A stretch of DNA of 64,000 bases from positions 7,695 through 71,694 of the forward strand of contig VEFU01000009.1 of the NCBI GenBank assembly GCA_007679095.1, written 5' to 3'. Shown one piece after another: positions 43,726 to 58,585 of this stretch. The notes below the pieces were generated by a model. The model was not told the origin of the DNA and did no database searches. It saw only the letters and a list, made by a program, of their open reading frames with translations. Made by a program: the position numbers and the translations under genes. Each line of letters begins with the position of its first letter. Within the stretch, counting starts at the first letter, position 1. The DNA is from Paenibacillus bovis (GTDB lineage: Bacteria > Bacillota > Bacilli > Bacillales > Bacillaceae_C).

Positions 43726-44541
43726 ATGAGAATTAATCATAATATCCAAGCGTTAAACGCTTATCGAAATCTATCACAAACAATGGCAGCTACATCGAAA
43801 AGCCTAGAAAAGCTATCATCTGGATTACGAATTAATCGCGCAGCAGATGATGCAGCTGGTCTAGCAATCTCTGAAAAAATGCGTTCGCAAATTCGTGGAC
43901 TTAATATGGCAGAGCGCAATGCCCTTGATGCTGTATCACTTATCCAAACGGCAGAAGGCGCATTAAATGAAACTCACTCGATTTTACAAAGAATGCGTGA
44001 ACTGAGTGTTCAAGCTGCAAACGGGACGATGGAAGACGACGATCGCAAATCAATTCAGCTAGAAATTGATCAGTTGGTTGAAGAAGTGGATAGAATAGCA
44101 GAAAAAACCGAGTTTAATGCGAAGTCATTGTTAGACGGGACTAATTCCGCAGGGTTTGTTTTTCAAATTGGAGCAAATAATGGGGATCAACTTACTGTTG
44201 ATATTGGAAAAATGGATAGTGCTAGTATTGGAATAGGCTCAGTAGATATATCTACTGTAGCGGGTGCAAACAATGCCTTGACAGCAATTGATAGTGCTAT
44301 TGCTGCTGTTTCTGAACAACGTGCAAAACTCGGAGCATACCAAAACCGCCTTGAGCACACTGTTACAAACTTACAAACAGCAAATGAAAACTTAACAGCT
44401 GCTGAATCACGTATTCGCGACCTTGATATGGCGCTAGAAATGTCCAACTTCACGAAGAGTAATATCTTAAACCAAGCAGGACAAGCGATGCTAGCTCAAG
44501 CAAATCAGTTGCCACAAGGAATATTACAATTACTACAATAA
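43726..44541 (+). CDS. second flagellin
   Basis: 271 aa. Complete flagellin: N-terminal D0/D1 (MRINHNIQALNAYRNLSQTM, SSGLRINRAADDAAGLAISEKMRSQIRGL), short middle, C-terminal D1/D0 (KLGAYQNRLEHTVTNLQTANENLTAAESRIRDLDMALEMSNFTKSNILNQAGQAMLAQANQLPQGILQLLQ). It lacks a long variable D2/D3. Contrast hag: no intron here, and its C-terminus DMALEM differs from MAKEMM. Directly after fliS, from the same SigD promoter. Probably a minor or alternative filament protein. Confidence 0.93.
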   Translation: MRINHNIQALNAYRNLSQTMAATSKSLEKLSSGLRINRAADDAAGLAISEKMRSQIRGLNMAERNALDAVSLIQTAEGALNETHSILQRMRELSVQAANGTMEDDDRKSIQLEIDQLVEEVDRIAEKTEFNAKSLLDGTNSAGFVFQIGANNGDQLTVDIGKMDSASIGIGSVDISTVAGANNALTAIDSAIAAVSEQRAKLGAYQNRLEHTVTNLQTANENLTAAESRIRDLDMALEMSNFTKSNILNQAGQAMLAQANQLPQGILQLLQ

Positions 44542-48783: not shown

Positions 48784-49221
48784 ATGAAAATACAAACGAA
48801 ATATCATGGTGAAGTTGAAATTGTGGAAGATACAATCTTAATATTTGAAAAAGGGATTCCAGGGTTCCCAGATGAAAAAAAGTTTACTTTACTACCTTTA
48901 CCAGATTTAACGAATATGTCCGTTATGCAATCTGTGACAACTCCTGCACTTGCGTTAGTAGTTGCAGATCCATATACACTCTTTTCTCCATATGAATTTG
49001 CATTAGATGACAACACAGTAGAAGAACTAGAAATAGCAGGTCCAGAAGATGTAAGTGCACTTGTCATTTTAACAGTACAAGATCCATTTGAAAAAAGTAC
49101 GGCTAATCTACAAGCACCGATCGTGATGAATATGAAAAAGAATAAAGGTAAGCAAGTCATCTTAAACAATGAAAACTACAAAACAAAGCAGCCATTATTT
49201 GGCCAGCCTGTGAAGGGGTGA
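48784..49221 (+). CDS. fliW: flagellar assembly factor FliW
   Basis: 145 aa. Beta-barrel protein that binds CsrA and flagellin: [64 protein letters not shown]. When flagellin leaves the cell FliW is free to sequester CsrA. Overlaps in operon with csrA (5-bp gap). Confidence 0.95.
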
Positions 49222-49225
49222 TGAC

Positions 49226-49453
49226 ATGCTCGTACTGACAAGGAAAAAAGGCGAATCCATTCAAATCGGCAACGACATCGAAATCACCATCGCAGCCATC
49301 AAAGGCGATCAAGTAAAAATCGGGATCAACGCCCCAAAGAATGTGGAGATTCATCGGAAAGAAGTATGGATGGAGATACAGAGTGAGAATACAGCGGCAT
49401 CTGCTGAAGTAAGTGATTTATTTGGAATATTGGCAAAGGCTAAGAAGGCGTAA
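49226..49453 (+). CDS. csrA: carbon storage regulator CsrA
   Basis: 75 aa. RNA-binding dimer: [45 protein letters not shown]-terminal extension [23 protein letters not shown] is the FliW-binding type found in Bacillus. Translational repressor of hag; its target site is visible at 49612-49645. Confidence 0.95.
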
Positions 49454-49527: not shown

Positions 49528-49553
49528 TAAATAAAATCGAACCATGACGATAT
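49528..49553 (+). promoter_or_regulatory. SigD promoter of hag
   Basis: TAAA (49528-49531) - 14 nt - GACGATAT (49546-49553), giving a leader of about 95 nt. Confidence 0.8.
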
Positions 49554-49611: not shown

Positions 49612-49645
49612 CATCTACATGGAAGTAGATGACACATTCAAGGAG
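49612..49645 (+). promoter_or_regulatory. CsrA-binding sites in hag leader
   Basis: Perfect 7-bp hairpin CATCTAC / GTAGATG with GGA in the loop (ATGGAA) at 49612-49631, the standard high-affinity CsrA site, and a second GGA in the SD CAAGGAGGAA at 49639-49648. This is the two-site arrangement of B. subtilis hag. Confidence 0.85.
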
Positions 49646-49654
49646 GAAAAATAA

Positions 49655-50890
49655 ATGATTATTAATCACAATATTGCTGCATTGAACACGCACCGTCAAT
49701 TAGGTGCAGCAACAAGTGCACAAAGCAAATCAATGGAGAAATTAGCTTCAGGTATGCGTATTAATAAGGCTGGTGATGATGCAGCTGGTCTAGCAATTTC
49801 TGAAAAAATGCGTGGCCAAATTCGCGGGTTGGATATGGCAGCTAAAAATGCGCAAGATGGTATCTCCCTTATTCAAACAGCTGAAGGCGCATTGAATGAA
49901 ACTCATTCTATACTACAACGTATGCGCGAACTTGCTGTACAATCTGCTAACGACACAAATACAGATTCAGATCGTGGAGAACTTCAAAAGGAATTAAATG
50001 AACTTATTGATGAAATTGATAGAATTGCTGGAAATACTGAGTTCAATACCCAAAATTTGCTAGGTGCTAAAGATGCTAGTGGTGCTTTTACAGGTGCTGC
50101 ACAGACATTTACATTCCACATTGGTGCTAATTCTGGACAAAATATTGAACTTGAAATTGAATCAATGGATGCCGCAAGATTGGGGAATTCTGGAACAAAA
50201 ATTAATTCATTAAAGGTTACTGGAAATAGTGGTGGAATTTCAACGCAATCTGGTGCTGATGATGCAATTACTGTTATAAATGATGCTATTGAACAAGTTT
50301 CTTCTGAAAGATCTAAATTAGGTGCATATCAAAATCGCTTAGAGCACACAATTAATAATTTAGGCACAGCATCTGAAAACCTAACAGCAGCAGAATCACG
50401 TATTCGTGACGTGGATTATACTGAAGCCGCCTAGTGGTGAATGTACAGTCGTCCTGACTGGTAACGGTCAGTGATAATTATCGGGTGAATTGCTGGAAAA
50501 CCTTTAGAGCTTTCTTCCCCACAACGGAGCTGGAAACAGCAAACGTGATGGGTAGAAAAGAAGAAAGATTAGGCAATCAGCAGCCAAGTTCCTGTCTCGA
50601 AAGAGTGGAAAAGGTTCAACGACTAGGATATACCATCTAAAGCCAAGGTTATGATGATGAAATCCGTAGGTGAGACAATGTCCATCAACATTGTGAATCC
50701 GAAGTGCCCGACCCCTACTAGAAAGCTAGAGGGTGAAGATATAGTCTAGTCATTTACGAAAGTAAATGTTCGCACGATGGCGAAAGAAATGATGGAACAA
50801 ACGAAGAATTCTATTTTATCTCAAGCAGCACAAGCAATGCTTGCTCAAGCAAATCAAGCTCCTCAAGGAGTATTGCAACTTCTTCGATAA
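49655..50890 (+). CDS. hag: major flagellin Hag, gene split by an intron
   Basis: Exon 1 is 49655-50416 (254 codons), exon 2 is 50777-50890 (37 codons plus stop); joined protein 291 aa. Exon 1: MIINHNIAALNTHRQLGAAT through ESRIRDVD; exon 2: MAKEMMEQTKNSILSQAAQA and MLAQANQAPQGVLQLLR. RDVD-MAKEMM is the standard Bacillus flagellin sequence, so removal of 360 nt restores it exactly. Unspliced RNA would give YTEAA and a stop, losing the C-terminal D0 helix. Two different flagellins, a Maf glycosyltransferase and nonulosonate genes are close by. SigD promoter; CsrA/FliW control. Confidence 0.9.
50417..50776 (+). ncRNA. group I self-splicing intron in hag, 360 nt, no ORF
   Basis: Seen: 5' exon ends in U (50416) and the intron ends in G (50776), as required. 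IGS GUCC (50451-50454) pairs with exon GGAU, with the U-G wobble at the splice site; ACUG/CAGU extends P1. P2 CTGAC/GTCAG follows. Conserved P-element GGTGAATTGCTGG (50484-50496), Q-element AATCAGCAGCCAAG (50575-50588), R-element GTTCAACGACTA (50614-50625) and S-element AAGATATAGTCT (50736-50747); P7 GACTA/TAGTC is visible. Exact removal restores the reading frame. Similar introns in flagellin genes of thermophilic bacilli have been reported. No homing endonuclease inside, so not self-mobile. Confidence 0.88.
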
Positions 50891-51163: not shown

Positions 51164-51766
51164 ATGAAGCTTATTTTCAAAGATGAAGTTATACAGTTTG
51201 ATACACAACCGACAGTAGAAGTTATGTTAAATAAAATTAATCAATTATTAGATAATCATTATTATTTCAGCCATCTTATTGTAGATGATAAAGAAGTATT
51301 TGATGATCCTGAACGATACTTACAGGATTATTTAAGTGGAATTAGAGAAATAGAAATTGTTGCAAAAACGGTCAAGCAGTTTATTAACGATCTATTATTA
51401 TCTGCTAAAGAGTATATCAGAAGAGCAAAACCTGAAATAGACTCACTTTCTGATGAATTTTATCAAAATCCAACACATGAAAGCTGGCATAAGTTTACCC
51501 AACTATTAGAAGGGATTCAGTGGATAAATCAGGTAATCCAAACAATTGATACGACAAAAGAGAAACCAAAAAATTGGATGAATTATATAGATCTCATCAG
51601 TACTTTAGATTCAGAACTGAAAAATATGGAAGAGGCTATCGAGAATAGTGACAGTGTGCTAATTGCCGATTTAATTAAATATGAAATTCTTTCAATTATA
51701 GAATCACTTGGAAGTGAAATTCAATCAACAATTGATACAGAGGGTTACCATCATGATCTTAATTAA
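51164..51766 (+). CDS. unknown protein heading the Maf operon
   Basis: 200 aa, soluble, acidic, no signal peptide. N-terminus about 1-65 is alpha/beta (MKLIFKDEVIQFDTQPTVEVMLNKINQLLD), the rest helical (FINDLLLSAKEYIRRAKPEIDSLSDEFYQ; LDSELKNMEEAIEN). Not recognised. RBS GGAGG. It overlaps the Maf gene by 14 bp and lies just behind the SigD promoter, so a partner of the glycosyltransferase or a flagellar chaperone is plausible. Confidence 0.75.
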   Translation: MKLIFKDEVIQFDTQPTVEVMLNKINQLLDNHYYFSHLIVDDKEVFDDPERYLQDYLSGIREIEIVAKTVKQFINDLLLSAKEYIRRAKPEIDSLSDEFYQNPTHESWHKFTQLLEGIQWINQVIQTIDTTKEKPKNWMNYIDLISTLDSELKNMEEAIENSDSVLIADLIKYEILSIIESLGSEIQSTIDTEGYHHDLN

Positions 51767-53636
51767 TAATCGTAACTATTTGAGACTTCAAAATCGTTCA
51801 TTGTTAAATAAGTTGAACGAAATTGAAGGACAATTGGATGAAAAAATTGTTACCCTTGAACAATCGAGAAAAGAAGTCGCCACGCTTAAGATTAATGTTA
51901 AAGGGAAAATGCAGTATATTCATAGTAAATACGATCCTATTATAGAAGCAGAACGTCTAATCGACCAGAAAAAAAATATTGAACTGTATGATCATGTTCT
52001 TTTTATTGGAGCAGGTCTTGGATATCATATTAAACAATTCAATGAAGTATATCCAGATATAAAAATATCCATTTATGAACCCAATATAGAAGTGTTTTAT
52101 CACTTTTTTTCAATTCAGAATATGGAGGAATTAAAGGATAGTATTGGAAAAGTATTTACTTCTATTAATGAAGATACGGTCAAGCATGAAGTGGAAAACA
52201 TTATTCAGATTTACGGAAAGAACATTTTGTTTTTTACCTTACCAGTTTATGAAAAGCTATATCAAAAAGAAGTGCATTTTCTCCTAGAAACATTTAAGCA
52301 CAATTTAAAAGATAGAAAGAGCAGTATTGCCGCAAATGCATCGTTTCAAAAAAGGTGGACAATTAATGCAATTAAAAACTTTCCAACAATACTAAGAACA
52401 CCTAATATTCTTTATGACGTAGATAAAAAGGCGTTTGCGGGAAAGCCAGCTATTATTGTTGCGGCAGGACCATCTTTATCAGAGGAGTTTGAAAATCTAA
52501 GATATATTAAAGATAATGGCCTTGCTTATATTTTCTCGGTAGGGTCTGCTATTAATGCTTTAATTGAACATGGGATATTTCCAGATGCGGCATGTACTTA
52601 TGATCCTACTCATCTTAATCAAGTAGTAATTCAAAAAATTAAAGATAAAAACATTACCGAGATACCACTAATTTTTGGTAGTTCGGTTGGTTATGAAACA
52701 ATAGAAGACTATCCAGGTCCAATGTTTCACATGATTACAAGCCAAGATACAGTTACAAGACATTTTATTTCAAATGCCAATCAAGTTAAAGTTGTTCTTG
52801 ACGCACCTTCAATTGCAGTCGTTACATTTCAATTATTAAAACAACTCGGTAGTAAGCAGATTATCCTTGTCGGACAAAACTTAGCTTATCAAAATGACCA
52901 ACTTTACGCTGATGGAATAAAATATGATTTTGTTTCCAATGAATTGGATGAATCAGAATTAGGTGATTTATTAAGTATTAAAGATGTCTATGGAAATGAG
53001 ATAAAAACAAATGAAGATTTTAACAAAATGCGTGCCCAGTTGGAACTATATATTGAAGCTTCAAATGATATTGAAGTTATTAATACTACTAAAGGTGGAG
53101 CGGAAATTAAAGGTACATCATTTACACCATTGGACAAAGTGATTTTATTTAAGCTGAAATCAAAAGTTGTGGAATCCGATTGGCTTCAAGCCAAAAATTC
53201 ATACGATTTAAAATATGTTAAATATCAATTGGTTAAAATGAAATATTGTATGGATCAATATAAAAATTTGGTAGATGGTATATTAAATGAATTAAAGGTA
53301 ATTGAAAGCAATATTCAAAAGAAAAGAACATATCAACTAGAATACAGGTTTGTAAAGTTTGATAAAGAATTTGCTAAGATGAAAAACAACCATTTCTATA
53401 AAGCTATGGTCGAGCCAATGATGAGAGTTCAAACGGAATTACTCTCAGAAAAAAGTAAAAAAATAAAATATGAAAATAACCTTTCAATAAAAGGTCAAGC
53501 AGTATTAGAAGCTTTTGGTCCATTTTTAAATGAATGTGTGACTCATTATGAATTTGCCACTCAGCTATTTGAAGAAATGAAAGAACATGTGGAAGAGTGG
53601 ATATCAACTGTTAAGGTAGGTGACAAGGGTGAGTAA
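51753..53636 (+). CDS. motility-associated factor (Maf) glycosyltransferase
   Basis: 627 aa, start at the ATG at 51753 (MILINNRNYLRLQNRSLL), 14 bp inside the preceding gene. Maf_flag10/DUF115 central domain: IIVAAGPSLSEEFENLRYIKDNGLAYIFSVGSAINALIEHGIFPDAACTYDPTHLNQVV. C-terminal helices. Maf proteins transfer nonulosonic acids (pseudaminic or legionaminic) onto flagellin Ser/Thr in the cytosol, which fits the sugar genes downstream. Overlaps legB by 8 bp. Confidence 0.92.
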   Translation: MILINNRNYLRLQNRSLLNKLNEIEGQLDEKIVTLEQSRKEVATLKINVKGKMQYIHSKYDPIIEAERLIDQKKNIELYDHVLFIGAGLGYHIKQFNEVYPDIKISIYEPNIEVFYHFFSIQNMEELKDSIGKVFTSINEDTVKHEVENIIQIYGKNILFFTLPVYEKLYQKEVHFLLETFKHNLKDRKSSIAANASFQKRWTINAIKNFPTILRTPNILYDVDKKAFAGKPAIIVAAGPSLSEEFENLRYIKDNGLAYIFSVGSAINALIEHGIFPDAACTYDPTHLNQVVIQKIKDKNITEIPLIFGSSVGYETIEDYPGPMFHMITSQDTVTRHFISNANQVKVVLDAPSIAVVTFQLLKQLGSKQIILVGQNLAYQNDQLYADGIKYDFVSNELDESELGDLLSIKDVYGNEIKTNEDFNKMRAQLELYIEASNDIEVINTTKGGAEIKGTSFTPLDKVILFKLKSKVVESDWLQAKNSYDLKYVKYQLVKMKYCMDQYKNLVDGILNELKVIESNIQKKRTYQLEYRFVKFDKEFAKMKNNHFYKAMVEPMMRVQTELLSEKSKKIKYENNLSIKGQAVLEAFGPFLNECVTHYEFATQLFEEMKEHVEEWISTVKVGDKGE

Positions 53637-54627
53637 AGTTCTTATCACAGGTGCAGATGGTTTCCTAGGATCACATTTAACAGAAGATCTAATACGAAAA
53701 GGTTATGATGTTCGTCCATTTGTATTTTATAATTCTTTTAATTCCTGGGGATGGCTAGACACTCTTTCATTAGAGATGAGAAATGAACTAGATGTATTTT
53801 CTGGAGATATACGTGATCCCCATGGGGTGAAAGAAGCTATGAAGGGATGCGACAAAGTATTACATTTAGCATCTCTAATTGCAATACCTTATTCATACCA
53901 TTCACCTGATACCTATGTAGACACGAATATTAAAGGGACCCTGAATATTCTTCAAGCAGCGCGTGAATTAGACGTAACTAGAGTAGTACATACCTCAACA
54001 AGCGAAGTGTATGGAACAGCTCAATATGTACCAATAGATGAAAATCATCCTCTACAAGGACAATCACCCTATTCTGCATCAAAAATTGGAGCAGATCAAT
54101 TGGCTTTATCATTTTATCGTTCATTTGAAACACCTGTCTCTATAATTCGTCCGTTTAATACGTATGGACCACGACAGTCAGCTCGTGCTGTCATTCCTAC
54201 AATCATCACTCAGCTTGCATCTGGAAAAAGAAAAATAAAGCTTGGTGCCTTAAGTCCTACTCGTGACTTTAATTATGTTAAAGATACTGTAAATGGCTTT
54301 ATTCAAATGATGAACAGCGATAAAGCTTTAGGTGAGGTTGTTAATATAGGTAGTAATTTTGAAGTCTCAATAGGTGAAACTGCAAAAATTATTGCAGAGA
54401 TAATGGGAGTAAAAATTGAAATTGAAACAGATGAGATTAGAATTCGTCCGAAGAAAAGTGAAGTAGAACGTTTATGGGCGGATAATGAAAAGGCAAAGGT
54501 TCTTCTGGGATGGGAGCCAGCATACGGAGGACTTGAGGGATTTAAACAAGGGATGAAAGAGACAATTGAATGGTTTACAAATACAAAAAATCTATCTAAC
54601 TACAAGGCAGATGTGTATAACATATGA
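53629..54627 (+). CDS. legB: LegB-type NAD-dependent sugar 4,6-dehydratase
   Basis: 332 aa from the GTG at 53629 (MSKVLITGADGFLGSHLTE), overlapping the Maf stop; a GTG at 53620 is possible. Extended SDR: Rossmann GADGFLGSHL, GDIRDPHGVKEA, catalytic triad with TSTSEVYGTAQ and YSASKIG (Tyr-x3-Lys), RPFNTYGPRQSARAVIPTII. Dehydrates nucleotide-GlcNAc to the 4-keto-6-deoxy sugar, step 1 of legionaminic acid. Confidence 0.9.
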   Translation: MSKVLITGADGFLGSHLTEDLIRKGYDVRPFVFYNSFNSWGWLDTLSLEMRNELDVFSGDIRDPHGVKEAMKGCDKVLHLASLIAIPYSYHSPDTYVDTNIKGTLNILQAARELDVTRVVHTSTSEVYGTAQYVPIDENHPLQGQSPYSASKIGADQLALSFYRSFETPVSIIRPFNTYGPRQSARAVIPTIITQLASGKRKIKLGALSPTRDFNYVKDTVNGFIQMMNSDKALGEVVNIGSNFEVSIGETAKIIAEIMGVKIEIETDEIRIRPKKSEVERLWADNEKAKVLLGWEPAYGGLEGFKQGMKETIEWFTNTKNLSNYKADVYNI

Positions 54628-55793
54628 ATAGTCAATGGTCCCAGATAGTAAAAGAGATAAAGGAAATTTATAAGAATAAAGACTTTGTTCCTTTACATGA
54701 ACCAACATTTAGTGAAACAGACATAGAATATGTAACGGATTGCATACGCTCAGGCTGGGTTTCTTCTGTTGGCAAATATGTAGATGATTTTGAGAAAAAA
54801 CTCGCCGAATATACAGGTGTAAAAAGAGTCGTCGCAGTGGTTAATGGTACGGCCGCACTACATATAGCATTGAAAGTAGCTGGGGTTCAAGCTAACGATG
54901 AAGTATTTATGCCCGCACTTACTTTTGTTGCAACAGCAAATGCAGCAACTTATTTACAAGCTATTCCTCATTTTGTTGATGTATCGGAAGAAACACTAGG
55001 ATTAGATCCAGTAAAATTGGAAAATTATATTCAAGAAATTGGCGAAATGAGGAATGGTCAATTAGTAAATAAAAAGACAAATAGAGTTATACGTGCTGTT
55101 GTACCAATGCATACATTCGGCCATCCTGTTGATTTGGATCCACTTATAGAATTATGTAGTAAATATCATTTAATACTTGTTGAAGATGCCGCTGAATCTC
55201 TTGGTTCGTTTTACAAGGGTAAGCACACAGGTGGTTTTGGAGTTGCAAGTGCACTTAGCTTTAATGGCAATAAAATTATGACAACTGGTGGCGGAGGAGC
55301 GATTTTAACAAATAATGAAAAATTAGCCGACTACGCAAAACATATCACAACCACAGCAAAAGTCCCGCATCGTTGGGAATATGTACATGATGAAGCAGGA
55401 TATAATTATCGAATGCCAAATATTAATGCAGCTTTGGGGTGTGCGCAATTAGAAAAGCTTGATTCTTTTATAGCTTCGAAAAGGCAATTAACAAATAGAT
55501 ATAAGAAGTTATTTGAACAAGTTGAAAGTTTGAAAGTATTTAGCGAACCAATCTTTGCTAAAAGTAATTTTTGGCTTCAAACGTTAATCATTGAGCGGAA
55601 AAAATATAATCGTGATGAAATACTAGAAATGTTGAATAATAATGGAATAATGGCACGTCCTATATGGAAACCATTAGATCAATTAGTTTCTTACGCCGAT
55701 TGTCCTAAAAGTGATCTTACTACAACTAATAAAATAAATAATATTATAATAAATCTCCCATCTAGCCCACCGATAGGAGGTACTTCCTCATGA
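54624..55793 (+). CDS. legC: LegC-type PLP aminotransferase
   Basis: 389 aa. DegT/DnrJ/EryC1/StrS aminotransferase: NGTAALHIALKVAGVQ, LVEDAAESLGS (Asp on PLP), Schiff-base Lys in FNGNKIMTTGGGG. Adds the 4-amino group to the keto sugar. ATGA overlap with legB and neuC-type gene. Confidence 0.9.
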   Translation: MNSQWSQIVKEIKEIYKNKDFVPLHEPTFSETDIEYVTDCIRSGWVSSVGKYVDDFEKKLAEYTGVKRVVAVVNGTAALHIALKVAGVQANDEVFMPALTFVATANAATYLQAIPHFVDVSEETLGLDPVKLENYIQEIGEMRNGQLVNKKTNRVIRAVVPMHTFGHPVDLDPLIELCSKYHLILVEDAAESLGSFYKGKHTGGFGVASALSFNGNKIMTTGGGGAILTNNEKLADYAKHITTTAKVPHRWEYVHDEAGYNYRMPNINAALGCAQLEKLDSFIASKRQLTNRYKKLFEQVESLKVFSEPIFAKSNFWLQTLIIERKKYNRDEILEMLNNNGIMARPIWKPLDQLVSYADCPKSDLTTTNKINNIIINLPSSPPIGGTSS

Positions 55794-56920
55794 AGAAAAG
55801 AAAAATTTGTGTCGTGACGGGAACGCGTGCAGAATATGGCTTACTTTATTGGTTAATGAAAGAAATTCAACAAGATGAAGAATTTGAATTACAATTAGTA
55901 GTTACAGGGATGCATTTGTCTCCAGAATTTGGATTGACTTATAAGGAAATTAAAGAAGAAGGATTTGTAATAAATGAAAAGATAGAAATACTGCTGTCTT
56001 CAGATTCCGCGGTTGGTGTTGTAAAATCTATGGGTCTTGCTGTTATTGAATTTGCAGGTGTCTTTAATAAGCTCTCACCAGATTTGGTGATTATACTAGG
56101 TGATAGATTTGAAATGCTAGCTGTTGCTCAAACAGCACTTATTGAAAACATTCCAATTGCTCATATTCACGGTGGAGAGCTTACATTCGGTGCGTACGAT
56201 GATTCCATTAGACATGCAATCACAAAAATGGCAACTTGGCACTTTACAAGTACTGAGGAATATCGTAACAGAGTCATTCAATTAGGAGAAAATCCTAATC
56301 GTGTTTGGAATGTTGGGGCATTAGGTATAGAAAATATTTTAAAATTAAATTTACTTTCAGAAGAAGAACTACTTTCTGACATAGGAATTATCGAAAATAA
56401 ACCTTACTTTCTAATTACACAACACCCTGAAACAAATGGTTCATCCAAAGGAATAGATAAGCTTTTGTTAGCGTTAGCTAAGTTTGAAAATTACAATTTA
56501 ATTTTCACAAAATCGAATGCTGACAATGGTGGTAGGTATATAAATGATACTATAGAACAATTTGTTATAAATCATCAAAACGCATATTTATATGACTCTC
56601 TTGGACAATTACGCTATCTTAGTGCTGTTAAACATGCAAAAGTAGTTATCGGAAATTCATCTAGTGGACTAATTGAAGCACCATACCTAGAGACGCCGAC
56701 TGTCAATTGTGGTAATAGACAAGATGGTAGACAAAAAATGTCATCAGTTTTTGATGCGGAATTAAACGAGACATCAATAATAAATGAAATTCATAATGCC
56801 CTGTTATTTAGTGGAATCTACGAAAAAAAATTTGGTGTGGGAAATTCGTCTAAAAAAATCATCGAGTTATTAAAAGAGGTTAAGGTGTATAGAGTTCAAA
56901 AGGAGTTTTATGACTTATGA
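55790..56920 (+). CDS. legG: NeuC/LegG hydrolysing 2-epimerase
   Basis: 376 aa. UDP-GlcNAc 2-epimerase (hydrolysing) fold: VTGTRAEYGLLYWLMKE, LGDRFEMLAVAQTALIENIPIAHIHGGELTFGAYDDSIRHAITKMATWHF, VVIGNSSSGLIEAPYLETPTVNCGNRQDGRQK. Releases the 2,4-diamino-hexose from the nucleotide. Overlaps both neighbours by 4 bp. Confidence 0.9.
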   Translation: MKKRKICVVTGTRAEYGLLYWLMKEIQQDEEFELQLVVTGMHLSPEFGLTYKEIKEEGFVINEKIEILLSSDSAVGVVKSMGLAVIEFAGVFNKLSPDLVIILGDRFEMLAVAQTALIENIPIAHIHGGELTFGAYDDSIRHAITKMATWHFTSTEEYRNRVIQLGENPNRVWNVGALGIENILKLNLLSEEELLSDIGIIENKPYFLITQHPETNGSSKGIDKLLLALAKFENYNLIFTKSNADNGGRYINDTIEQFVINHQNAYLYDSLGQLRYLSAVKHAKVVIGNSSSGLIEAPYLETPTVNCGNRQDGRQKMSSVFDAELNETSIINEIHNALLFSGIYEKKFGVGNSSKKIIELLKEVKVYRVQKEFYDL

Positions 56921-57993
56921 GTAAAACATATATCATTGCTGAAGCTGGTGTAAATCATAATGGATCTTTAGACTTGGCATTTGAATTAGTAGATATTGCG
57001 GTAAAGGCAGGAGCAGATGCAGTTAAATTTCAAACGTTTAAAGCAGAAAATCTAGTAACAAGGAAAGCACAACAAGCTGCGTACCAGATTGAAAATATTG
57101 GTGAAGAGACATCACAGTTTGAAATGTTAAAAAACTTAGAACTTAGTTATAATGAACTTTTGCGGTTAAAAGCATATTGTGATGAAAGAAATATAGAATT
57201 TTTGTCGACACCTTTTGACTTTGAAAGTGTCGATTTTTTGCTGGAAATAATAGACATTAATACAGTGAAAATTTCATCTGGAGAACTGACTAACTCTCCG
57301 TTCGTTCATTATATAGCTACTAAACGCAAGCCAATTATTTTATCAACGGGAATGGCAAATATGGAAGAGATTATTGAAGCATTATCCTTTATTGCTTACG
57401 GTTTGGCATTTCCGAACAAGACAGTTGAGTTGGAGTCTGTACGTAGTTATTACTCAACAGATGAGGCAAAAAAATGGTTGAAGCGATATGTAACTATTCT
57501 TCAATGTACAACAGAGTATCCAACTCCTTATAATGATATCAATTTACAAGCTATGGACCATTTGAAAAGGGAATTACAATTAGAAATTGGATTGTCGGAT
57601 CACTCAAAAGGTATATATGTTCCAATTGCAGCAGTGGGTAAAGGAGCAAAAGTAATTGAAAAACACTTTACAATCAATCGTATGTTGCCGGGACCAGACC
57701 ATCAAGCATCTCTAGAACCTGCTGAACTAACCGAAATGGTGAAGGGTATTAGAATTGTGGAAGCGTCACTAGGGAATAGTGAAAAAAAACCAACAGCAAA
57801 TGAAGAAAAGAATCAAATTGCAGCTAGAAAAAGTCTCGTAGCAGCAAAAGCGATTGAAGCAGGAGAACCATTTACAAGTGATAATTTAGCAATAAAGCGG
57901 CCAGGAAATGGTTTAGCTCCTTCTAATTGGTGGGGGCTTTTAGGAACAACTGCCTCAAAAAGTTATGAAGAGGATGAGCTGATTGATGAATAA
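56917..57993 (+). CDS. legI: NeuB/LegI nonulosonate synthase
   Basis: 358 aa. Condenses PEP with the 6-carbon sugar into a 9-carbon legionaminic-type acid. TIM barrel: IIAEAGVNHNGSLDLAFELVDIAVKAGADAVKFQTFKAENLVT, LSTGMANMEEI, LQCTTEYPTPYNDINLQAM, IGLSDHSKG, EKHFTINRMLPGPDHQASLEP; C-terminal SAF/antifreeze-like domain AARKSLVAAKAIEAGEPFTSDNLAIKRPG. Confidence 0.93.
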   Translation: MSKTYIIAEAGVNHNGSLDLAFELVDIAVKAGADAVKFQTFKAENLVTRKAQQAAYQIENIGEETSQFEMLKNLELSYNELLRLKAYCDERNIEFLSTPFDFESVDFLLEIIDINTVKISSGELTNSPFVHYIATKRKPIILSTGMANMEEIIEALSFIAYGLAFPNKTVELESVRSYYSTDEAKKWLKRYVTILQCTTEYPTPYNDINLQAMDHLKRELQLEIGLSDHSKGIYVPIAAVGKGAKVIEKHFTINRMLPGPDHQASLEPAELTEMVKGIRIVEASLGNSEKKPTANEEKNQIAARKSLVAAKAIEAGEPFTSDNLAIKRPGNGLAPSNWWGLLGTTASKSYEEDELIDE

Positions 57994-58585
57994 ACCGGTT
58001 ATTATTATAGGAAATGGTGGACATGCGGGAGTACTAACTGAAATTTTACTTCAGCAAAAAAGAACCATTATAGGTTTTACTGCACCGGAAAAGCAGGAAA
58101 ACCAATTTGGGATTAAATACCTTGGATCCGATGAAGTTATTAATACATTTAACAATCAAAAGATTGAACTGGTCCTAGGAATTGGAGCAGTAGATGTATC
58201 TGAAACTAGGTCAATAAAATTTAAGGAATTTAAGGAGAAACGGTTTGACTTTGCAACAGTTATTCATAAAAGTTCTATTATTTCTCCTAGTGCAATTCTA
58301 GGAGAGGGAGTCCATGTAATGGCAGGATCTGTCATTCAATCTTTTGTGAATATTACCGATAACACAATTATAAATACATCTTCTAGTATAGATCATGACT
58401 CTTATATTGGAAAACACAGCCATGTTGCTCCAGGAGCCACTATATCTGGAGGTGTAAAGGTGGGGCAATTAACGCATATTGGTGCTGGTGCTATCATTAT
58501 TCAAAATATCCAGATTGGAAGTCATGTAATGATAAGAGCTGGGTCACTTGTAAAGCAACATGTGGCTGACTATTCTAAAATATAA
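57986..58585 (+). CDS. NeuD/PglD-type sugar O/N-acetyltransferase
   Basis: 199 aa, ATG 57986, 8 bp inside legI. Left-handed beta-helix hexapeptide repeats: IIGNGGHAGVLTEI at the N-terminus, ILGEGVHVMAGSVIQSFVNITDNTIINTSSSIDHDSYIGKHSHVAPGATISGGVKVGQLTHIGAGAIIIQNIQIGSHVMIRAGSL. His in DHDSYIG is the catalytic base. Probably acetylates the 4- or 7-amino group (LegH role). Confidence 0.9.
   Translation: MNKPVIIIGNGGHAGVLTEILLQQKRTIIGFTAPEKQENQFGIKYLGSDEVINTFNNQKIELVLGIGAVDVSETRSIKFKEFKEKRFDFATVIHKSSIISPSAILGEGVHVMAGSVIQSFVNITDNTIINTSSSIDHDSYIGKHSHVAPGATISGGVKVGQLTHIGAGAIIIQNIQIGSHVMIRAGSLVKQHVADYSKI

Follow-up and report, generated by a model that had tools for sequence, protein, structure and literature searches.

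An in-frame Ala-Ala tail in the P1 loop of a flagellin group I intron of Paenibacillus bovis: a candidate degron-like ending for late-splicing transcripts

The intron-split flagellin gene and its surroundings

The window, meaning the whole 64,000-nucleotide stretch of Paenibacillus bovis contig VEFU01000009.1 that was analysed, carries a flagellin gene (49655-50890) split by a group I intron and preceded directly by fliW and csrA (Table 1). The candidate promoter ahead of it resembles, by eye, the sigma-D consensus, and the leader hairpin is a candidate CsrA site, the fold of the whole leader reaching a z-score of only -1.06. The genes downstream (51164-58585) look like a flagellin glycosylation block, with an MptE-like/Maf protein at 51750-53636 (Pfam) followed by what appear, by eye, to be nonulosonic acid synthesis genes.

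Table 1. Features of the flagellin locus in the window, with the basis of each assignment.
Feature	Positions	Strand	Description	Basis
Second flagellin	43726..44541	+	intronless	Pfam Flagellin_N and complete Flagellin_C 1-86
fliW	48784..49221	+		Pfam FliW
csrA	49226..49453	+		Pfam CsrA
Candidate sigma-D promoter	49528..49553	+	TAAA-N14-GACGATAT	by eye
Leader hairpin	49612..49631	+	CAUCUAC-AUGGAA-GUAGAUG, GGA in loop, ahead of Shine-Dalgarno	fold
Flagellin exon 1	49655..50416	+	254 codons, end ...ESRIRDVD	Pfam Flagellin_N and Flagellin_C positions 1-50
P1 core 5' strand	50414..50417	+	exon GAU and intron U; U50416 at splice site	sequence and P1 pattern of relatives
Group I intron	50417..50776	+	360 nt	RF00028, 95.2 bits; exact exon junction
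In-frame intron-encoded tail	50417..50434	+	YTEAA, stop TAG; P1 loop, between splice site and guide	
Hairpin over tail	50426..50438	+	Ala-Ala codons and stop region against downstream strand	fold; pairing and covariation in relatives
Guide	50447..50450	+	A-GUC pairing with exon GAU and intron U; GUC = 50448-50450; G50448 opposite U50416	
P2-like hairpin	50454..50471	+	CUGAC...GUCAG	sequence, by eye
Flagellin exon 2	50777..50890	+	37 codons and stop, MAKEMM...LQLLR	Pfam Flagellin_C positions 51-86

A sequence-only reading of this DNA had placed a group I intron at exactly these borders and had proposed a search with the Rfam group I model as a check. That search returned a full-length match to RF00028 (model positions 1-253) at 50407-50768 on the + strand, scoring 95.2 bits against a gathering score of 50 (E 2.8e-23), the sole Rfam match in the 64-kb window above its family's gathering score. 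The intron falls between positions 50 and 51 of the 86-position Flagellin_C profile, and since the two exons match positions 1-50 and 51-86, removal of 50417-50776 neither loses nor adds a profile position, agreeing with the frame-preserving excision that had been proposed. Uninterrupted copies, in which GAYGTNGAT is joined directly to ATGGCNAARGARATG, occur in 8 of the 183 loci scanned, amounting to seven copies in six places (ten raw counts, two loci overlapping two others), and one congener locus holds two such copies beside an intron copy. The U.G wobble and the terminal G named in that reading are likewise found, with U50416 able to pair with guide G50448 and G50776 as the last intron base. 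Within the intron the ORF list has no + strand entry that reaches 60 codons. The element is thus a group I intron whose predicted removal restores the flagellin frame.

Placing the 5' border after GACGU and ending the intron at 50772 also keeps the frame but gives RDVTMAKEMM in place of the conserved RDVD followed by M and of the uninterrupted copies, and these borders were rejected. In plasmid and phage collections the intron found partial matches only, none spanning 80% of its length.

The class is not new, as had been pointed out from the sequence: the flagellin group I introns of Geobacillus stearothermophilus and thermophilic Bacillus (Hayakawa and Ishizuka 2009, 2012) are cited in the part of PMC3984707 available to us, which also describes stops in frame with the upstream exon as common in such introns and links them generally to splicing-translation coupling. 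The ribosomal stop after YTEAA can be read directly as an in-frame tail, and the suggestion that translation into P1 may link splicing to translation is plausible by analogy with such introns. csrA and an intronless paralogue are both present, but the combination of CsrA control with such a paralogue, previously singled out as noteworthy, is not what makes the locus unusual. Flagellin group I introns and their in-frame stops are known; the unusual element here is the YTEAA tail with its stop, a peptide-conserved Ala-Ala ending that resembles ssrA and alanine-tail degrons.

In-frame tails at this insertion site and at other flagellin sites

The insertion site of this intron is termed site B, and its introns are phase 0. 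A pattern scan of the genome collection, using the 3' junction only and hence blind to the intron 5' end, gave at least 117 stretches with the site B junction among the matches listed, in records bearing at least 37 genus names, one of which (Pseudomonas) is probably a misnaming. From the junction scan and whole-genome searches 144 distinct site B introns were assembled, 122 collected without any tail filter and 22 more through a filter for a stop 4-8 codons in. In the unfiltered introns the first in-frame stop lies 5 codons in (106/122) or 6 codons in (16/122) and nowhere else, even though the distance from stop to guide varies between 10 and 24 nt and the intron lengths are spread about evenly modulo 3 (36/46/40). 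Over all 144 introns the stop stands 5 (128) or 6 (16) codons in, ahead of the guide.

An Ala-Ala ending is found in 137 of the 144 distinct introns, the window's included (118/122 unfiltered, 19/22 filtered). The tails comprise YALAA (79), YAEAA (10), YTEAA (8, the window among them), YDLAAA (6), YVLAA (5), YDLAA (4), YVLSAA (4) and others, with Tyr1 near invariant (142/144) and the residue before Ala-Ala, position -3, being Leu in 95, Glu in 20, Ser in 10, Ala in 8, Ile in 6, Phe in 3, Gln in 1 and Lys in 1. The seven tails ending otherwise are YALVA (two), YALTA, YVLSVA, YALAS, YALVS and YASVA; PMC9382460 lists LVA and SVA among the variants of the ssrA tag. As a baseline, among 380 non-overlapping ORFs of at least 200 codons from the junction-scan loci and the window, one ends in AA and none in LAA. 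The median intron-body identity at site B is 0.85, and shared descent of the introns means that these counts are not independent events.

A sample of the order drawn by RNA family rather than by junction, with 115 entries from roughly 150 or more RF00028 places, gave a comparable picture among the matches listed: 37 of 41 site B entries end in -AA, corresponding to 36 of 40 places, one having been read twice. Upstream frames other than flagellin, again among the matches listed, end in -AA in 2 of 45 entries and, quite frequently, in some Ala (13 of 45), the latter counted from the listing and mostly ribonucleotide reductase introns (KSA, KVA, RVA); some of these 45 frames are probably not host exons, two of them looking like HNH endonucleases, and nine further entries have no readable upstream frame. 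Because non-flagellin introns mostly do not end in Ala-Ala and those at flagellin site A of the same gene end otherwise, group I architecture does not in general bring such a tail as a by-product.

Three further flagellin insertion sites were distinguished. Site A follows NAQDG and site C follows QAMLA; site D, found in other classes of the phylum, precedes C by 4 nt. Site A introns (seven loci) carry KLEMPL, KREMPL, RLEMPL, RQEMPR or K before the stop, endings that are not degron-like. RF00028 matches at E 1e-10 or better were present in 17 of 299 genomes sampled across the phylum, two of these 17 being the own genome and one of its order. Flagellin introns account for 12 of the 17 phylum-sample loci, with four at site B (YAEAA), two site C-like and six at site D; the two site C-like introns lie in one genome and encode the full C-terminus.

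Site D introns are phase 2, and all 15 tails resolved among 17 loci end in -AA before a stop, although six of the 15 were picked after their tails had been seen, the other nine coming from 11 loci found afterwards by searching the order and class of two site D genomes. The tails are ERMAA (4), EEIAA (2), EGIAA (2), EEMAA (2), DEMAA, EVRWAA, EGLAA, EAPAA and EGMAA, with TAA, TAG and TGA all serving as stops, and in most site D folds the codon of the last alanine, Ala5, lies in the hairpin loop rather than in the stem. The string UAGCUGCAUAAGC is common to B and D loops in some members, and the two sites are thus possibly not independent origins but may share a common loop ancestry; even then, the frame relative to the exon has been kept or regained.

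The P1 loop of site C introns carries, in frame, the coding sequence of an entire flagellin C-terminus, QSNQMPQGVLQLLR in 36 of the 80 distinct copies, and the exon after the intron encodes the C-terminus again (61/80 being QANQQPQGVLQLLR). With a complete C-terminus in the loop, unspliced RNA of site C genes would still give full-length flagellin. The loop has a dN/dS of 0.089 over all 14 codons, against 0.078 for the true last exon, and of 0.147 (pS 0.61) over the nine codons outside VLQLL, a motif that the site C finder required, so that broken copies are missed and those five codons pull the 14-codon value down. The order sample imposed no VLQLL requirement, and there 19 of 20 site C-like entries among the matches listed are complete; one site C-like intron (L292), in which the loop frame is broken, is a counter-example to the rule. 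A site C intron follows the site B intron in the same gene in 43 of 119 parsed site B introns among the matches listed. Introns with an alternative C-terminus of this kind were noted in ten named loci and others.

Several flagellin genes in tandem, all interrupted by similar introns of their own, were observed at L180 and L317 (Salirhabdus euzebyi) and at L086/L164 (Paucisalibacillus globulus). Genes that by eye resemble ribonucleotide reductase carry the intron tails KDAA, KDVA, KKVA and KNVA at four loci and KTA, KLA, KVA, KSA (two) and KAA at six more. Possibly these tails are the same trick in another gene.

RNA pairing and selection on the peptide

The tail of site B lies in a region that also pairs, and coding and pairing constraints have to be separated. 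In equally spaced introns P1 consists of three helices, the first pairing exon GAU and intron U with A-GUC, the second pairing UGCUU with AAGCA and running from the end of codon 1 into the start of codon 3, and the third pairing GCNGC with GCNGU, covering the two Ala codons and closing a loop that holds the stop. Changes on the two strands of the third helix were counted by parsimony in 77 introns of equal spacing, on a tree built from the rest of the intron. At the four paired positions where a change in the Ala-Ala codons would be non-synonymous there is one change, and at their four non-coding partners there are 26 (binomial p 4e-7); the synonymous paired position shows seven changes on the coding strand and seven on the partner strand. 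A smaller first set of 64 introns gave 0 against 17 changes, and the contrast was 0 against 8 (p 0.008) among 13 equally spaced introns chosen as representatives that share less than 90% identity.

Taking all 128 five-codon introns together, positions 1 and 2 of the two Ala codons accumulated seven changes, and the two third positions 12 and 49. The dN/dS ratio of codons 4-5 is 0.036 and that of codons 1-3 is 0.71. All four bases occur at the third position of the Ala5 codon. In the helix next to the Ala-Ala helix, changes on the coding side are compensated, altering codon 2 among Ala, Asp, Val and Thr. Codon 3 has an unpaired third base that is A in 123 of the 128 introns; this near invariance, together with that of Tyr1, indicates that RNA constraint acts here too. 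The strand contrast and the dN/dS values argue that Ala-Ala is kept as peptide, a well-supported conclusion from sequence comparison in which RNA pairing forms a second constraint and which is bounded by the short sequence, the shared descent, the near-invariant Tyr1 and the unpaired near-invariant A at codon 3.

A proposed ending for late-splicing transcripts, its alternatives and known systems

Our preferred reading, to which we give a probability of roughly 60%, is that the P1 loop encodes an ending for ribosomes that arrive before splicing, here a degron-like tail by which truncated flagellin would be removed. Flagellin mRNA would be translated while it is being made, and ribosomes reaching the 5' splice site before splicing would run on into the P1 loop and terminate there after five codons, 15 nt inside the intron. 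The product would be a truncated flagellin without its last 37 residues, which form the C-terminal D0 helix, ending in ...DVD-YTEAA here and in ...DVD-YALAA in most relatives. Such a fragment may enter flagellin handling without being able to complete the D0 domain, and could poison filament assembly. The terminal Ala-Ala would act as a cis-encoded imitation of the tmRNA (ssrA) tag or of RqcH alanine tails, leading ClpXP, probably, or a similar protease to remove the fragment, and we propose that Ala-Ala is kept by selection because it works in this way. The stop inside P1 would at the same time keep ribosomes out of the catalytic core, allowing P1 to re-form and the intron, presumably, to splice. 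The P1 loop would accordingly provide a late-splicing protein ending in one of two forms, a degron-like tail at sites B and D or the native C-terminus at site C. With somewhat more reserve, we lean slightly towards a general form of this idea, in which bacterial group I introns in protein genes evolved fail-safe endings in the P1 loop that protect the host from the late-splicing product, either a cis ssrA-like degron (flagellin sites B and D, perhaps ribonucleotide reductase with KVA, KSA and KDAA) or a substitute C-terminus (site C).

The tail might instead serve the RNA only, the GCNGC string and the stop being kept for the P1 extension hairpin and for a stop near the splice site, with a peptide that has no role. 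The pairing of the Ala-Ala codons within the hairpin with covariation at third bases, the near-invariant Tyr1 and codon 3 third base, and the frequency of in-frame stops in such introns (PMC3984707, in its available part) all fit that explanation, but it sits poorly with a coding strand that shows one non-synonymous change against 26 on the pairing strand (none against eight in the representatives) and with an Ala5 third base that is free to take any of the four bases. A first stop always 5 or 6 codons in, the retention of Ala-Ala at site D in a different pairing register, and compensated changes in the adjoining helix that alter the amino acid at codon 2 also tell against it, and we consider it unlikely.

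A ribosome terminating in P1 could also be the regulator itself, forming a translation-coupled splicing switch that senses translation or growth state, with the tail setting the speed of termination rather than the stability of the product. We rate this as quite improbable: the placement of the stop 5 or 6 codons in and before the guide in 144 of 144 introns and the position of fliW and csrA directly upstream speak for it, but the slow-terminating endings documented in the accessible text of PMC7246954 contain Pro or a Thr motif, not Ala-Ala, and the full C-terminus encoded at site C would be left unexplained. A role for the truncated flagellin as a functional isoform, such as a FliW-CsrA regulator or an exported non-polymerising flagellin, appears very improbable, even though exon 1 keeps Flagellin_N and 50 of the 86 Flagellin_C positions, given that the peptide-selected part of the tail is an ending of the destruction-marking kind and that codons 2-3 vary (dN/dS 0.71 for codons 1-3).

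The preferred reading, a degron-like ending for late-splicing transcripts, bears on the conflict of group I introns in bacterial protein genes with coupled translation, and on how hosts tolerate such introns where the gene is expressed at a very high level. If it is correct, a conserved intron-encoded degron is a direct answer, the intron disposing of its own by-product; flagellin introns would also represent a natural case of a protein quality-control tag evolved in cis and could be a source of short degrons for Bacillota. Within the portions of the open-licence literature available to us we came across no account of an intron that encodes a conserved degron or a tail resembling the ssrA tag, and met none of a P1-loop substitute C-terminus in searches not aimed at it; for the known flagellin introns, the available part of PMC3984707 mentions no Ala-Ala tail.

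A close comparison is the tmRNA tag, which also places an ALAA or -AA C-terminus on truncated chains. Such tags commonly end in LAA, the last three residues being critical (PMC9382460, in part), and B. subtilis ClpXP recognises both ssrA and poly-Ala ends according to the accessible part of PMC8957991; ClpX is present in the own genome. Tag sequences were sought in 30 hosts, hand-picked in favour of unusual tails, of which 27 were read (25 by ARAGORN and two by hand) and three were not. In 28 of 28 tags, from the 27 hosts and the own genome, the residue before Ala-Ala is Phe, Val, Leu, Tyr or Ala, as in GKENYALAA of one host and GKENNNFAFAA of the own genome. The window tail YTEAA shares the C-terminal Ala-Ala of an ssrA-type degron and has Glu where those tags have Leu or another non-polar or aromatic residue, which leaves its strength as a degron uncertain. 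An LAAA intron tail accompanies an LAAA host tag in three of four cases, four of seven hosts with an LAAA tag lack an LAAA tail, and 19 have neither, a distribution confounded by kinship; whether intron tail and host tag match in detail is not clear.

The own genome's tmRNA gene lies on another contig (L059:1501-1843; G000 contig C121) and breaks off within the T-loop (...GGGUUCGAUU), at the point where a weak group I match starts (C121:55099-55376, 37.6 bits, below the cut-off). The gene is probably an intron form, a known kind according to the available part of PMC11915505.

Likeness to tmRNA extends to the RNA, the stop region lying in a hairpin loop in the five tmRNA tag regions folded as it does in the intron. 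The mode of addition differs, however: the tmRNA tag is added in trans to stalled ribosomes, whereas the flagellin tail is encoded in cis by the intron itself and ends at a normal stop codon, placing it outside trans-translation. The poly-alanine tails added by RqcH in Bacillus subtilis RQC also resemble it, being C-terminal alanines on truncated chains that ClpXP recognises (PMC8957991, in part). Those tails are not encoded by mRNA, whereas the flagellin tail is encoded by the intron. Site C has a different parallel in organelle introns that hold a second copy of the 3' coding end and so likewise supply the C-terminal coding sequence of the host gene themselves; at site C, in distinction from these, the copy is housed in the P1 loop of a flagellin group I intron.
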